DNA of 44,203 nucleotides from Candidatus Methanomethylophilaceae archaeon (GTDB lineage: Archaea; Thermoplasmatota; Thermoplasmata; Methanomassiliicoccales; Methanomethylophilaceae). Location: the NCBI GenBank assembly GCA_017540825.1, contig JAFYAH010000054.1, positions 1 through 44,203 of the forward strand. Reading direction: 5' to 3'. Of the stretch, positions 24,613 through 41,988 are shown in pieces. The translations under genes were made by a program, and so were the position numbers. Each line of letters starts with the position of its first letter. Within the stretch, counting starts at the first letter, position 1. Under the pieces are notes generated by a model that worked only from the letters and a program-made list of their open reading frames with translations, made no database searches and had not been told where the DNA came from.

Positions 24613-25518
24613 GTGACGGCTAAGGCGCTCTCCGCAGCATCCGTGATCGCATGCGCGTCGATTTGGGGATTCATCGGGATATGCACGAGGACCCTCTCGG
24701 ACGCCGGCATGGACTCGGTCCAGATAAACGCGGTGAGGTCGACGGTATGCCTCGTCGCCATCGCGGCGGCCCTCCTTGTAATGGACAGGGGCGCGTTCAG
24801 GATAAAGGCCAAGGACCTGTGGGTGCTGTTCCTGGCGGCCCTCACGAAGGTGGGCATGGACGTCCTGTACATCCAGGCGCAGACCATGATCGACCTCTCG
24901 ATGGCAGGAGTGCTGCTGAGCACCCACTGCTACTTCTCCATAGCCATCTCCTACCTGGTATTCAGGGACAGGATAACCGCGAAGAAGATCCTGGCCGCCG
25001 TCATAGGGTTCTCCGGATGCGCTTTCGCCGTAGGGCTCTTCACCGGCGTGCGGGAGCTGGAGATACTCGGGATCTGCATCGGGCTGGGAGCGGGCTTCGG
25101 GGAAGCTCTGCACGCGGCCACGTTCAAGCTGTCGCTGGACAGGGGGAACTCGGAGCCCACGGTATTGTTCTACGTGTTCGTGCTGAGCACCGCCATGCTG
25201 ATGCCCTTCTCGGACCCTGCGGGCACGGTGTCCATCATGGCCGGTAGCACGGAGGTCCTCGTCGCCTCTTTGGCTATAGGGCTGGTGTTCACCGCCCTCC
25301 CCTACTATCTGTATTCCAAAGGGCTCGCTGGCCTGGACATAGGGACGGTGTCAGTCCTCATGTTCCTGGAGACCGCGATGGCGTCCGTCGCCGGGCTGAT
25401 ATTCTTCGGAGAGGAGATGTCCCTCCACAGCGTGATAGGTATCGCCCTGATATTCGCGTCCCTGGTCATCATGAACCTCGGCATAAGGGACGAGGAGCGC
25501 AAACAGGATAACGCATGA
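24613..25518 (+). CDS. DMT-superfamily transporter (EamA)
   Basis: This 301-residue membrane protein has about ten hydrophobic spans and two EamA-like halves: SIWGFIGICTRTL near the N-terminus and a C-terminal TVSVLMFLETAMASVAGLIFFGEEM typical of the second repeat. Members export or import small metabolites and amino acids; substrate unknown. Two ATGs just upstream (24597, 24603) are out of frame. The GTG at 24613 is about 26 bases from a CATATATG element, so a leaderless GTG is plausible. It is followed after 18 bases by the dihydrouridine synthase gene. Confidence 0.85.
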   Translation: MTAKALSAASVIACASIWGFIGICTRTLSDAGMDSVQINAVRSTVCLVAIAAALLVMDRGAFRIKAKDLWVLFLAALTKVGMDVLYIQAQTMIDLSMAGVLLSTHCYFSIAISYLVFRDRITAKKILAAVIGFSGCAFAVGLFTGVRELEILGICIGLGAGFGEALHAATFKLSLDRGNSEPTVLFYVFVLSTAMLMPFSDPAGTVSIMAGSTEVLVASLAIGLVFTALPYYLYSKGLAGLDIGTVSVLMFLETAMASVAGLIFFGEEMSLHSVIGIALIFASLVIMNLGIRDEERKQDNA

Positions 25519-25536: not shown

Positions 25537-26571
25537 ATGTGGAGGATAGGAGACGTTCGCATCGACGGCCGCGTGGTCCTTGGGCCGATGTCCGGATTCA
25601 CTTTCGCCAGCTACAGGGACTTCATGAAGCCTTTCGGGGTGGCGGTGTCGATGACGGAGCTCACTTCGGCCATGGGGATAATCCACGACTGCGACAGGAC
25701 GGCGTCCATGTACGTAGGGTTCGGCCCCAACCATCCCACGGGGCTGCAGCTGTTCGGAAGCGACCCGGATAAGATGGCCGAGGCCGCGGAGACCGCCCTG
25801 AAGATGAACCCCAACATCGACTTCTTCGACATAAACATGGGATGCCCCGTCCCGAAGGTCCTTCGCAGCGGGTCCGGATCCGCCCTCATGGGGGACCCGC
25901 GGAAGTGCGGAGAGATCGTCAAGGCCGTGAAGAGGCGCACAGGCCTCCCAGTGACGATAAAGACCCGCCTGGGGAAATCGATGGACTCGATGAACTACCG
26001 CGACGTCCTGGAAGCCTCCATAGACGCAGGGGCGGACTGCGTGATGATCCATGCCAGGACCGTGAAGGAGAGGTACTCAGGGACTCCGCACTACGGCCTC
26101 GTCGAAGGGCTCCAGTCGGAGCTCCCGGTGCCCTTGGTGGTCTCCGGGAACGTCTACAACCTCGACGACGCGGTCTAGGCTTCCGAGTGCACCGGCGCCG
26201 CCGGGATCATGGTGGCCCGCGGAGGGGTGGGCAACCCCTTCCTGGTTACCCAGATCGACTCCTGGTTCCGCTACAGGAGGAGGCTGCCCAACCCGACGGT
26301 CGCCCAGCAGATAGACTGGTGCATGCGGCTATCCGACGCCGTCATAGAGGAGAAGGGGGAAGCCGTGGGGATAAGGAAGCTGCGCAGCATAGCGCCCAAG
26401 TTCGTGGCTGGGTGCACGAGATGCAAAGGGAGCCGCCGCCTGCTGTCGACAGTCCCGACGACCAGGGAGGAGCTGTTCGAGATGCTCCTCGAGATAAAGG
26501 ACAGGGCAGGGTCGGAGGTCGTCCGCTCCGCTGTCCAGAGCGATGTCGCGTGCACGCACGGAGAGGATTGA
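25537..26571 (+). CDS. tRNA-dihydrouridine synthase with one in-frame amber (TAG) codon
   Basis: Dus enzymes reduce uridines in tRNA with FMN. Reading the TAG at 26176-26178 as sense gives a 344-residue protein with the family features in order: VVLGPMSGFTFASYR, NIDFFDINMGCPVPKV with the catalytic Cys, TIKTRLGKS, MIHARTVKERYSG, VSGNVYNLDDAV, then after the amber ASECTGAAGIMVARGGVGNPF and the C-terminal helical domain. The two parts are in the same frame with no other stop, and the amber sits inside the helix between the conserved SGNV and MVARG motifs. Without readthrough the product loses part of the FMN site and the RNA-binding tail. Pyrrolysine insertion is the natural explanation in this lineage; a fresh nonsense mutation is the alternative. 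Confidence 0.85.
26176..26178 (+). other. In-frame amber codon, candidate pyrrolysine (codon 214 of dus)
   Basis: TAG falls between DDAV and ASECTG. At this helix position homologues usually have a charged residue such as Lys or Arg, so a single base change from AAG would create it. The downstream frame is intact for 131 more codons and ends in TGA. Confidence 0.7.
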
Positions 26572-26642: not shown

Positions 26643-27176
26643 TCAGCTCTCCATCCCCAGGGAGATGGCCTTCCTGTTGCTGTCGATCAGCGCCGCCTTC
26701 TTCGGCGGGATGCTCTTCTGGAGTCCCTTGTCCAGGTTCTCCGCGGAGCAGAACCCGGTCTCCCTGAACATCCTTCCGAGGATGACCATGTTGGCGGCTC
26801 CCTTGAACCCGTTGGCCTCGGCGATGTTCGAGGCGTCCAGATATACGACCTTCACGTCGTCGCGGGAGACCTTCTTGGTGATTATGGAGCTGTCCACTAT
26901 GATCAGGCCGCCGGGGACGACGTCCTTCTCGAACTTCTCCAGAGACGGGAGGTTCATGGCGACGAGGACGTCCGGCGTGGTCACCAGCGGGGACCCTATG
27001 GTCGCGTCGGAGAGGCACACGCTGCAGTTGGCGGTCCCTCCGCGCATCTCCGGCCCGTAGGAGGGAAGCCAGGAGACCTCCTTCCCCTCCATCATGCCGG
27101 CGTAGGCGATGACCTTGCCTGTGAACAGGATCCCCTGCCCGCCGAACCCGGCCAGGAGTATGTTGAGGTCGGTCAC
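26643..27176 (-). CDS. korC: 2-oxoacid:ferredoxin oxidoreductase, gamma subunit
   Basis: The 177-residue gamma chain has the family opening NILLAGFGGQGILFTGK and the middle motif PSYGPEMRGGTANCSV. Together with the alpha, beta and ferredoxin chains it oxidises a 2-oxoacid and CoA to acyl-CoA, reducing ferredoxin. The GTG at 27176 overlaps the beta-subunit TGA (GTGA). It is the last gene of the ParA-korDABC operon. The gene order D-A-B-C favours the 2-oxoglutarate enzyme, but a branched-chain (Vor) substrate cannot be excluded. Confidence 0.88.
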   Translation of the reverse strand: MTDLNILLAGFGGQGILFTGKVIAYAGMMEGKEVSWLPSYGPEMRGGTANCSVCLSDATIGSPLVTTPDVLVAMNLPSLEKFEKDVVPGGLIIVDSSIITKKVSRDDVKVVYLDASNIAEANGFKGAANMVILGRMFRETGFCSAENLDKGLQKSIPPKKAALIDSNRKAISLGMES

Positions 27177-27922
27177 TGCTCTCCCTCCCCTATGTCCTTG
27201 TAGACCCCGAGAGGATAGTAAGGGAGCATGTTGTCCCTGAGCCACTGGATGGCGTCCTTGGGTGCCATCCCCCAGTTGGTGGGGCAGGTGGAGACGACCT
27301 CCACGATGCAGTAGCCCTTCCCGGCCATCTGGTACTCGAAGGCCTTCTTGATAGCCCTCTTGGCTGCCTTCACGTTCTTCACGCAGTCGACCGTGACGCG
27401 CTGGGCCAGTGCCACCCCGTCCAGGGACGAGAGCATCTCGCACACCCTGATGGGGTTCCCGGCGGTCTTCACGTCCCTTCCGTAAGGGGTGGTCTGGGTG
27501 ACCTGCCCGGGCAGGGTGGTGGGGGCCATCTGCCCTCCGGTCATACCGTAAATCGCGTTGTTGATGAAGATCGCGACGATGTTCTCTCCCCTGGCGGCGG
27601 CATGGACGGTCTCTCCCATCCCGATGGCGGCGAGGTCCCCGTCCCCCTGGTAGGTGAATACCACGTTCTCGGGCCTCGCCCTCTTTATCCCGGTGGCGAC
27701 GGCGGGAGCGCGCCCGTGTGGCGCCTGGACCATGTCGCAGCCGAAGTAGTTGTATGTGAATACGGAGCACCCGACGGATGCCACCCCGACGGTCTTCCCC
27801 TCGACGCCGAGCTCGTCTATGGCCTCTGCCACGAGCCTGTGCACGATCCCGTGGGTGCATCCAGGGCAGTAGTGCAGAGGCACGTCCAGGAGCGCATGCG
27901 GCCTCTCTCCTTTGACAGTCAT
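27173..27922 (-). CDS. korB: 2-oxoacid:ferredoxin oxidoreductase, beta (thiamine diphosphate) subunit
   Basis: The 249-residue beta chain binds thiamine diphosphate. Seen are CPGCTHGI (Cys19 and Cys22, with Cys52 nearby) and the GDGDLAAIGMGETVHAAARG pyrophosphate-Mg motif followed by NNAIYGMTGGQMAPTT. Its ATG overlaps the alpha-subunit stop (ATGA), and its stop overlaps the gamma start. In methanogens lacking a full citric-acid cycle this enzyme supplies 2-oxoglutarate for glutamate synthesis. Confidence 0.92.
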   Translation of the reverse strand: MTVKGERPHALLDVPLHYCPGCTHGIVHRLVAEAIDELGVEGKTVGVASVGCSVFTYNYFGCDMVQAPHGRAPAVATGIKRARPENVVFTYQGDGDLAAIGMGETVHAAARGENIVAIFINNAIYGMTGGQMAPTTLPGQVTQTTPYGRDVKTAGNPIRVCEMLSSLDGVALAQRVTVDCVKNVKAAKRAIKKAFEYQMAGKGYCIVEVVSTCPTNWGMAPKDAIQWLRDNMLPYYPLGVYKDIGEGEQ

Positions 27923-28986
27923 CGCTGAACACCTCCGTTTAATCTGACGATCTCGTCATAGACCTCTTTGGGCGTGGGGATTATCCCTCCGGTGCGCCCG
28001 TAGAACTCGACGGGCCTGGTGCACCTGCAGGCGAGCCTGATGTCGTCGACCATCTGCCCCATGTTCATCTCCACCGACAGGAACGCCTTGGCGTGGCCGG
28101 CATGCTTCCAGATCGCCTTCTCTGGGAACGGCCAGAGGGTGATTGGCCTGATGAGGCCGACCTTTATGCCCTCCTTGCGGGCCTTGTCGACGGCGGAGCG
28201 GGAGACCCTGGACGAGGCCCCGAACGCCACGATGATTATGTCCGCGTCGTCTGCGAGGTACTCCTCCGCCCTCTGCTCGGTCTCCTTGATCTTCTCGTAC
28301 TTCTTGTACCGCTCGCGCACGAGGTCCTCCAGCTCCTGGGGGTTGATGTACAGCGAGTTGATGACGTTGTGCTCCCTCTTGTTCTGATGCCCGCAGGCGG
28401 CCCAGGGCTTGCTGTCGTTGTCGACCTCCTTGGGCTCGGGAAGCGCCACAGGCTCCATCATCTGCCCGAGCATCCCGTCGGAGAGGACCATGGCGGGCAT
28501 CCTGTACTTGTCCCCGAGGTCGAACGCGCCGGCGACGAGGTCCACCATCTCCTGGACGGTGGAAGGCGCGAAGACGAGCATGTGGAAGTCTCCGTGACCG
28601 GTGGCCTTGGTGGCCTGGCAGTAGTCCGCCTGGGAAGGCTGGATCCCGCCGAGGCCGGGCCCGCCGCGCTGGACGTTGATTATGAGGCACGGCACGTCGG
28701 ATCCGGCGATGTAGGATATCCCCTCTGACATGAGGCTGATCCCGGGCGATGAGGTGGACGTCATGACCCTGGCCCCGGCGGCTCCGGCCCCCAGGACCAT
28801 GTTGATCGATGCGACCTCGGACTCCCCCTGGAGGTACACTCCTCCGATCTTGGGCATCCTCTTGGACATGTAGGCCGCGACCTCCGTCTGGGGCGTTATA
28901 GGATAGCCGAAGAAGTGCCTGCATCCGGCTGCTATGGCGGCCTCCGCGATGGCCTCGTTCCCTTTCATGAGGACTCTCTCGGCCAT
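27919..28986 (-). CDS. korA: 2-oxoacid:ferredoxin oxidoreductase, alpha subunit
   Basis: The 355-residue alpha chain shows KGNEAIAEAAIAAGCRHFFGYPITPQTEV, the GESEVASINMVLGAGAAGARVMTSTSSPG core and a late IRPITLWPFPEK segment. The ATG at 28986 lies 22 bases inside the ferredoxin-subunit gene. The longer frame upstream has no family similarity, so this start is chosen. It works with korB, korC and korD. Confidence 0.92.
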   Translation of the reverse strand: MAERVLMKGNEAIAEAAIAAGCRHFFGYPITPQTEVAAYMSKRMPKIGGVYLQGESEVASINMVLGAGAAGARVMTSTSSPGISLMSEGISYIAGSDVPCLIINVQRGGPGLGGIQPSQADYCQATKATGHGDFHMLVFAPSTVQEMVDLVAGAFDLGDKYRMPAMVLSDGMLGQMMEPVALPEPKEVDNDSKPWAACGHQNKREHNVINSLYINPQELEDLVRERYKKYEKIKETEQRAEEYLADDADIIIVAFGASSRVSRSAVDKARKEGIKVGLIRPITLWPFPEKAIWKHAGHAKAFLSVEMNMGQMVDDIRLACRCTRPVEFYGRTGGIIPTPKEVYDEIVRLNGGVQR

Positions 28987-29207: not shown

Positions 29208-29870
29208 TTATTCCCATGGCGCCTTGACGCAGACGTCTATCGGGTAGATGTTCGGTATTTTATTTAAGAGGTTGATGTCGCGAGGGACCGCTGTGAACCT
29301 TATCGGAAGCCCGGTGAGCTCCGAGACCTTCTCTGCAAAACCTGCCGAGCCCATTATCACGGACTCGTCGGTCCTCTGCTTGAGATGGGAGTTGTTCACC
29401 AGGCCGGTGGCCTTCAGGCGCGAGGCCTTCTCGATCTCCCCGAGGATCTCCGCCGCCTCCTCCGGACGAGTGGTCATGGACCTGTACCTGTTGACCACGT
29501 ACAGCACGTCGGGGTCGGCATCGTACAGCCTCGAGGCGTACACCCCGAGCGCCGTTGCTCCGGCGTCGTCCCCTCCGACGTCGATTATCACCCTCTGGCC
29601 GTCCTCTATGAGGCCTGGGATGGATCCTGGGAGCGAGGGGGTGTCCAGGTTGGTGTTGGCGAAGTTGGGCCCGATGACCCTGATCCCCTACGCCGAGAGC
29701 TGCTCCGAGTAGTCCGCGGACCTGAAATAGGGGTTCACCACGTCCAGGTCTATCAGCGTCACGTCCTCTCCGCGGCGGGCGCAGTCTGACGCGAGGTTGA
29801 TGGACAGGTTGGTCTTGCCGGCGCCGTAATGGCCGCAGACGACGGTGACCCTCCTCTCTAGCGGGAACAT
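29208..29870 (-). CDS. ParA/MinD-like ATPase with one in-frame amber (TAG) codon, upstream of korDABC
   Basis: Reading the TAG at 29688-29690 as sense gives a 220-residue P-loop protein. The Walker A motif GHYGAGKTN is at 13-21, a switch-type LIDLDVVNPYFRS follows, and after the amber come GPNFANTNLDTPSLPG, VIIDVGGDDAGATALG (Walker B-like) and a VNRYR segment. The amber (codon 61) lies between YSEQLSA and GIRVIGPN in the same frame with no other stop. The gene is followed after 12 bases by korD, and such ATPases are found beside oxidoreductases of this class in other anaerobes; its role there is unknown. The TATA box TTTATAAAAG (29893-29902) is ~27 bases from the ATG, so the message is leaderless. 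It ends in TAA. Confidence 0.83.
29688..29690 (-). other. In-frame amber codon, candidate pyrrolysine (codon 61 of the ParA-like gene)
   Basis: TAG (minus strand) sits just before the GIRVIGPN strand, where a Lys or other charged residue would be ordinary, and splits an otherwise intact ATPase between its two nucleotide-binding motifs. A truncated 60-residue product could not fold as a ParA ATPase. Confidence 0.7.
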
Positions 29871-40723: not shown

Positions 40724-41545
40724 ATGAGCAATCAAGCCGGGGACAGGGTCACGCTCTGCACGGACGGCAAGTACCGCTGGGTGTACGAGATGAGCCTGAT
40801 CCGCAACGCCACTATACCTCTCCTTATGCTGAAGGTCCTCCTCATCACCCTGGCCATAGTCGAGATAATCATACTGGCCATCGCCCTGGCGTCGGGAGAC
40901 GACGTGGTCGAGATGCTCGTCGGCTCGCTTAGGATCATGGGGTGCGTCCTCCTGGCCCTCGTCCCGGTAGGGGTCGTCGCATACCTTCTGTACGCCTGGC
41001 GTATGGGATGGTACTACTGCGTAGTGTTCGAGATGGACGAGGAAGGGGTGCTCCACGCCCAGCAGGAGAACCAGGTGAAGAAGGCAGGGCTGCTGGCGGA
41101 CATGGCGATACTCGCAGGGCTGGTCGCCGGGAACCCGACCACCGCGGGAGCCGGGCTGCTGGCCAAGACTAGTAGCCGCATGTACACCGAGTTCGCTAGC
41201 GTCCGCCTTCTAGGCTCGTCCAGAGGCAGGAACGTCATCTACGTGAACAACAACCATGTCTACGTCCCGGACGAGGACTTCGACTTCGTCTGGGAATACA
41301 TCAGGAGCCGCTGCCCGAAGGCCAGGCGACGTCCCTCTGTGAACGGCTCGCGTCGCAGGCGGGTCTTTCCCATGATGGATTTGGGATCGAAGAACTCGTA
41401 CTCGATTTTGCGGCCGAGCTGGATGAAGCAGCCGGTGTCCTGCTGTATCACCTGTCTGGAGAACTCGTCGTTGAACTGGAACGTGTGGGTCCCTGTGTCC
41501 AGAGCGTGCTGGTGCCTCTCCCCTGTGCCCAGCGTCGCCACATGA
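40724..41545 (+). CDS. Small two-span membrane protein family; expected stop lost, runs antisense into next gene
   Basis: The recognisable part is ~205 residues: an N-terminal CTDGKYRWVYEMSLIRN, two hydrophobic spans (about 35-55 and 70-90), GWYYCVVFEMDEEGVLH, an AGLVAGNPTTAGAGLLA stretch, and a C-terminal VYVPDEDFDFVWEYIRSRCPKAR. Similar proteins in anaerobes usually end right after the CPxAK motif; function unknown. Here the frame continues 68 more codons, entirely antisense to the gene on the other strand, before a TGA at 41543. The ATG at 40724 is ~27 bases from the TATA element, so leaderless. The real C-terminus may lie near 41335. Confidence 0.7.
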   Translation: MSNQAGDRVTLCTDGKYRWVYEMSLIRNATIPLLMLKVLLITLAIVEIIILAIALASGDDVVEMLVGSLRIMGCVLLALVPVGVVAYLLYAWRMGWYYCVVFEMDEEGVLHAQQENQVKKAGLLADMAILAGLVAGNPTTAGAGLLAKTSSRMYTEFASVRLLGSSRGRNVIYVNNNHVYVPDEDFDFVWEYIRSRCPKARRRPSVNGSRRRRVFPMMDLGSKNSYSILRPSWMKQPVSCCITCLENSSLNWNVWVPVSRACWCLSPVPSVAT

Positions 41546-41988
41546 ATGCCGTCGATGCTAATGTCGACCTTCCGGTCCCTCCCGGTTAGGCCGGCTTCCG
41601 CCCTGAAGAACACCTTCACCTCCTTGGAACCGGTGCTGGCCTTCTTCTCCCCGTTGACGAAGGACAGCGCGCCTCCCCCGTTAGCCCAGCTGATCTCCGT
41701 GCCGTCCTCGCGGTCCTCCTTGATGTAGCAGTGGATGTCGCCGTCGATATTCTTGGATACGCTGCTCTTCCCGTCCTTGTGAGCGAACGTGAACTTGCGC
41801 TTGCCGGTCATGACCTTGGCCTCGAAGCTCTCCCCCGGCTGCAGCGAGGCCACGAGGCTCCCGTCCACGTAGATCGCGACCGGCTTCGCCTTGCCGAACA
41901 GGCGATCGCCGTATCCCCTCTCCACCTCGAACACGACCGAGGCTTCCGCAGCATCGCCGGCATCTTTGCTCTTCGAAAAAAGACTCAT
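41260..41988 (-). CDS. Protein with two tandem PEGA/DUF2846-like beta domains
   Basis: The 242-residue product has a short N-terminus without a signal (MSLFSKSKDAGDAAEA). Two related ~90-residue beta-rich domains follow: the first with AIYVDGSLVASLQPGESF and KVMTGKRKFTFAH, the second with DISIDGIHVATLGTGERHQ and ALDTGTHTFQF. This is the xxVDGxxVxxLxPGxxxxxxLxxGxHxF pattern of PEGA/DUF2846-like folds, internally duplicated. Function unknown. The last ~50 residues overlap the convergent membrane-protein gene and look unrelated to any domain, and it stops in TAG. A TATA element (TTTAAATAC, 42009-42017) precedes the ATG at 41988. Confidence 0.7.
   Translation of the reverse strand: MSLFSKSKDAGDAAEASVVFEVERGYGDRLFGKAKPVAIYVDGSLVASLQPGESFEAKVMTGKRKFTFAHKDGKSSVSKNIDGDIHCYIKEDREDGTEISWANGGGALSFVNGEKKASTGSKEVKVFFRAEAGLTGRDRKVDISIDGIHVATLGTGERHQHALDTGTHTFQFNDEFSRQVIQQDTGCFIQLGRKIEYEFFDPKSIMGKTRLRREPFTEGRRLAFGQRLLMYSQTKSKSSSGT

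Follow-up and report, generated by a model that had tools for sequence, protein, structure and literature searches.

An in-frame amber codon, very probably read as pyrrolysine, conserved in a tRNA-dihydrouridine synthase gene of Methanomethylophilaceae archaea

The methylamine methyltransferases MtmB, MtbB and MttB carry pyrrolysine (Pyl) in their active site. An archaeal genetic code in which all TAG codons specify pyrrolysine has reportedly been described by Kivenson et al. (Science 2025), and the Pyl case of Methanosarcina thg1 is said to have experimental work behind it. The product of the latter gene, a Pyl-containing tRNA-His guanylyltransferase, is put down to neutral evolution in the title of Heinemann et al. 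(2009; cited in PMC4153887). For Candidatus Methanomethylophilus alvus, 16 non-methyltransferase Pyl proteins have been predicted (Borrel et al. 2014, PMC4153887, Table 7); in the same paper, the low use of TAG as a stop in this organism is argued to reflect constitutive decoding, and a stable acceptance of in-frame ambers is proposed. The locus described here is a dus gene interrupted by one in-frame TAG. As in M. alvus, which belongs to the same archaeal family, ordinary genes with a single in-frame TAG are joined by homology, and TAG is rare as a stop (about 5% in our genome, 1.6% in M. alvus; PMC4153887). Unlike in M. alvus, whose list contains no dihydrouridine synthase (PMC4153887), the TAG is here conserved in four species and selection was measured on both sides of it. 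Like Methanosarcina thg1, dus is a gene for a tRNA-processing or -modifying enzyme with one in-frame amber, but the enzyme and the archaeal order are different and the case is a prediction from sequence. The UAG would be decoded by the same pyl genes that serve the methylamine methyltransferases, and mtmB and mtbB carry TAG here as well; whereas Pyl is general to those families, in Dus it would be confined to a single clade and to a variable site with no catalytic role. The reading of TAG as Pyl appears to be genome-wide, as in the code of Kivenson et al., but about 5% of the strong genes apparently retain it as their terminator. Beyond a review of missing tRNA genes, no pairing of pyrrolysine with a dihydrouridine synthase was found in the literature extracts consulted.

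The dus gene lies in a window of 44,203 nucleotides, the whole stretch of DNA analysed (Table 1). Its frame of 344 codons ends with TGA and contains a single internal stop, the TAG at codon 214, past which the coding signal continues. The readthrough product matches the Pfam Dus domain in one piece over residues 15-314 (185.7 bits against a gathering score of 20.4; E=1.5e-54), in agreement with the claim of an earlier note that an intact frame is broken by the amber and by no other lesion. Among NCBIfam models, DusB (TIGR00737) scores highest but, at 230 bits, does not reach its cut-off (293); these profile matches establish membership in the Dus family beyond doubt but leave the DusB name uncertain. 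The catalytic residues C103, K142/R144 and H172/R174, which lie in the motifs NxGCP (with the catalytic Cys), KxR and HxR as defined in PMC3674756, are invariant across the alignment. AlphaFold gives a confident Dus fold for the readthrough product, a TIM barrel with a helical domain (pLDDT 88), whose best match in the PDB is 1vhn (TM 0.83/0.93); E. coli DusB (6ei9) matches with TM 0.81/0.90. Residue 214 is placed in an outer barrel helix (residues 209-219) of this model. A 213-residue product would lack the VARGxxGNP loop and the helical domain as well as the last barrel strand, and is unlikely to be active as an enzyme. No second Dus was found in the assembly, where the remaining matches to PF01207 are PyrD and HisF.

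Table 1. Positions of dus, its in-frame TAG and neighbouring genes in the window.
Feature	Position	Strand	Remarks
EamA-family transporter	24613..25518	+	Directly upstream of dus; synteny kept in six genomes
dus, tRNA-dihydrouridine synthase (DusB-like, COG0042/PF01207)	25537..26571	+	344 codons with TAG readthrough
Pre-TAG segment of dus	25537..26175	+	213 aa; three Dus catalytic motifs NxGCP (C103), KxR (K142), HxR (H172)
In-frame TAG, codon 214 of dus	26176..26178	+	Predicted pyrrolysine; TIM-barrel outer helix H209-219
Post-TAG segment of dus	26179..26568	+	130 aa; last barrel strand, conserved VARGxxGNP loop, C-terminal helical domain
2-oxoacid:ferredoxin oxidoreductase, three genes	26643..28986	-	POR, TPP-binding, POR_N/PFOR_II; between dus and NTPase
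P-loop NTPase (CbiA/ParA-like)	29208..29870	-	Second predicted Pyl gene; 220 aa with TAG readthrough
In-frame TAG, codon 61 of NTPase	29688..29690	-	

The genus sample comprised 31 genomes, 29 of which match the Dus protein, one of them as a short fragment. Four species-level genomes (G000, G018, G026 and G029) have an internal stop in dus, which is always TAG and always at the same codon. Since these genomes were assembled separately, sequencing error and chance can be ruled out. The four form one clade (support 98/94), and the sister clade has Ser at this position, encoded by TCC or TCG, the latter being one step from TAG. The amber would have arisen once, in the ancestor of the four species, probably from the serine codon TCG. 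Purifying selection downstream of the TAG is as strong as upstream, NG86 dN/dS being about 0.08-0.11 in either segment. For the pair G000/G018 it is 0.108 upstream and 0.110 downstream (core), and for G026/G029 it is 0.089 upstream and 0.083 downstream (core). A sense pair from the sister clade gave 0.083 before codon 214 and 0.132 after. None of the four TAG genomes has another lesion in dus, and the TAG has been retained at a synonymous divergence near saturation. That the TAG inactivates the gene and that dus is a pseudogene might be suspected from all that the 213-residue product would lack, but the low dN/dS after the TAG in two species pairs, the freedom from other lesions, the persistence of the TAG over such divergence and the coding signal beyond it make this most improbable; conservation in one clade together with similar dN/dS before and after the codon in our judgement excludes a degraded gene as well as a sequencing error. 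Another alternative is that translation terminates at the TAG and restarts at Met225 (position 26209), residues 1-213 and the downstream fragment then assembling into a split Dus. An ATG is indeed found 11 codons past the TAG (ORF 26209-26571), but M225 is invariant in relatives without the stop and hence no newly gained start codon, nothing that clearly resembles a ribosome-binding sequence was seen ahead of it, and a break inside the barrel, just before the strand formed by residues 223-226, would be unusual. We regard such an arrangement as very unlikely.

Outside the genus, this Dus was found in one of the 29 other family and order genomes searched, a family member belonging to a different genus. 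Among the relatives identified from sequence are Methanomethylophilaceae/Thermoplasmata of rumen and gut, and the nearest non-archaeal relatives of the genus Dus (L008-L015) are Bacilli. This distribution and these nearest relatives suggest that the gene was transferred long ago between Bacilli and the archaea described here.

The genes pylT, pylS and pylBCD, which the earlier note had expected in a pyrrolysine-using lineage, are all present in the assembly (2.37 Mb, 95.6% complete), where they form a complete cassette on a contig other than that of dus. A tRNA-Pyl with a CTA anticodon was located by ARAGORN (L047:9328-9398). PylS, PylB and PylC score above their curated cut-offs (255 bits against 178, 433 against 348 and 296 against 248, respectively), and PylD was confirmed by a PylD_N match (110 against 27). 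Of 12 genomes tested, this one included, 11 have a PylS above the cut-off, the exception being a 61%-complete assembly. A search for the PylS N-terminal domain found none; presumably PylSc alone is expected in this order, so that the missing domain is not evidence against a pyl system. The mtmC and mtmB genes adjoin the cassette. Two positive controls behaved as such: the full Pfam MtmB match of mtmB (759 bits) spans a single in-frame TAG, and mtbB has one TAG each in G000, G018, G029 and G001. With pyl genes present, close relatives sharing the TAG and the downstream segment under selection, the Pyl-containing Dus predicted in the earlier note is by far the best reading. Neither of the two sequence-level findings that the note had named as refuting it was observed, since the genome has pyl genes and some relatives carry TAG instead of a sense codon. 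We conclude that the locus is very probably a functional dus gene of a Pyl-decoding Methanomethylophilaceae methanogen, in which the UAG at codon 214 is read as Pyl to give a full-length product. The UAG would be read by tRNA-Pyl charged by PylS, yielding a Dus of 344 residues with Pyl on an outer barrel helix; we infer both this insertion and the activity of the readthrough enzyme. That the inserted residue is Pyl is suggested by a scan for tRNAs over 30% of the genome, in which a single tRNA with a CTA anticodon was found. Given this coverage, one might imagine another suppressor tRNA that reads TAG as a standard amino acid, but the only CTA tRNA in the sample is tRNA-Pyl and the full Pyl pathway is present, which makes such a decoder scarcely conceivable. 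No PYLIS-type stem-loop was found after the UAG of the four TAG dus genes: single-sequence folds of 120 nt gave z values from -1.38 to +1.00 and resemble those downstream of the same site in sense genes. Lack of a downstream fold agrees with a mechanism in which Pyl insertion and release factors compete (PMC8211752).

Codon 214 specifies ten different residues in 22 aligned sense relatives: Asp in five, Ser in four, Gly and Ala in three each, Asn in two, and Arg, His, Glu, Thr and Leu in one each. The earlier note had taken Lys or Arg to be normal at this position, which was not borne out, as none of the 22 has Lys, a single one has Arg and the sister clade has Ser; of the two codon meanings whose conservation in close relatives it had proposed as a check, TAG is conserved (four genomes) and Lys is not (0/22). 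Such diversity is reached in only 3 of 325 alignment columns, this site included. A further 18 columns hold eight or more residue types, and in six of them the four TAG genomes agree with one another, so that conservation of the TAG needs no special selection. Special selection for Pyl at codon 214 is thus unsupported, the TAG being retained no better than other variable sites. The dus amber looks neutral rather than regulatory and is best seen as neutrally accepted; its tolerance would follow from an active tRNA-Pyl and from a surface position at which nearly every residue is admissible. A different proposal is that Pyl at this codon was selected as a regulatory device coupling tRNA dihydrouridine to methylamine supply. 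Retention of the TAG in four species and the failure to find a second Dus in the genome would fit this proposal, as would the carbon-source-dependent Pyl decoding known in Acetohalobium, as cited in PMC8211752 and PMC4153887. We nevertheless consider it very unlikely, since the site ranks in the top three of all columns for variability and a third of its peers (6/18) are equally uniform in the four genomes, since TAG is carried by many unrelated genes, and since the low use of TAG as a stop suggests constitutive decoding, an argument already made for M. alvus (PMC4153887). Dependence of Dus on Pyl, from which the earlier note derived a hypothetical link between tRNA modification and methylamine metabolism, is plausible, no other Dus having been found in the assembly, but other genes would have the same dependence, which does not amount to specific regulation.

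Use of TAG elsewhere was surveyed in 709 kb (30%) of the same genome, with genes called from codon usage by a home-made caller. Coding-like sequence flanks 20 TAGs, in 18 genes, on both sides; the corresponding controls are nine TGAs (of 450 inside called genes) and one TAA (of 41). Coding signal persists after 23% of the apparent TAG stops in this sample, against 4% for TGA and 3% for TAA. TAG terminates about 23 of 434 strong genes (~5%), with non-coding-like sequence following, whereas triplet frequency would lead one to expect a 27% share of stops. No clear excess of back-up stops was detected near these TAG-ended genes of the sample. TAG is depleted, yet it still appears to act as a stop in this genome, and full reassignment to Pyl is unsupported in view of the strong genes that end in TAG without such an excess. 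Since genuine termination at TAG seems to persist, some truncated 213-residue Dus may be produced as well.

Within the surveyed sample, the TAG falls inside a single Pfam domain in NADAR (L074:8642-9073, minus strand), in a phage integrase (L076:474-1433, minus strand) and in a copy of RNA polymerase subunit A'. Other TAG-interrupted genes encode PPK2 (L094:14951-17023), an OB-fold Ssb-like protein (L068:11550-13523) and an ArsR-arsenite methyltransferase fusion (L080:724-2100), all on the minus strand. Some called genes with multiple TAGs (e.g., L101, L098 and L103) were not relied on, being probable shadow frames. In the A' gene (L080:2462-5413, plus strand; G000:C13) the TAG replaces Lys at codon 24, within what we take to be the motif SPDEIRKM. 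An intact second A' copy, 84% identical, is found on C48 of the same assembly, and G018 likewise has two copies, reflecting either a duplicated subunit or co-binned strains. The intact copy weakens the TAG-bearing one as proof of essential Pyl use.

The dus amber is a further case of the already known in-frame Pyl codons in ordinary genes. It represents a clearly supported, cross-species-conserved predicted Pyl outside the methylamine methyltransferases, in what is apparently the sole tRNA-modifying enzyme of the Dus family in its genome, and the TAG and Ser clades offer a clean natural comparison for asking whether such a residue is a neutral passenger. More tentatively, and with some doubt on our part, Pyl might be a general, constitutive amino acid in this clade, needed by dozens of genes including the only Dus found and the A' copy; growth and tRNA modification would then depend on Pyl synthesis whatever the substrate. 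The locus also serves as a warning that standard annotation splits such TAG genes in rumen Methanomassiliicoccales.

The order transporter, dus, three oxidoreductase genes and NTPase is conserved in six genomes. The NTPase gene lies 3 kb from dus. Its TAG falls inside the CbiA match and is shared by the four genomes that carry the dus amber, the sister clade having AAG or GAG. Elsewhere in the window, a gene on the minus strand (41260-41934) has as its only stop before a long extension the TAG at 41260-41262; it overlaps a frame on the opposite strand.
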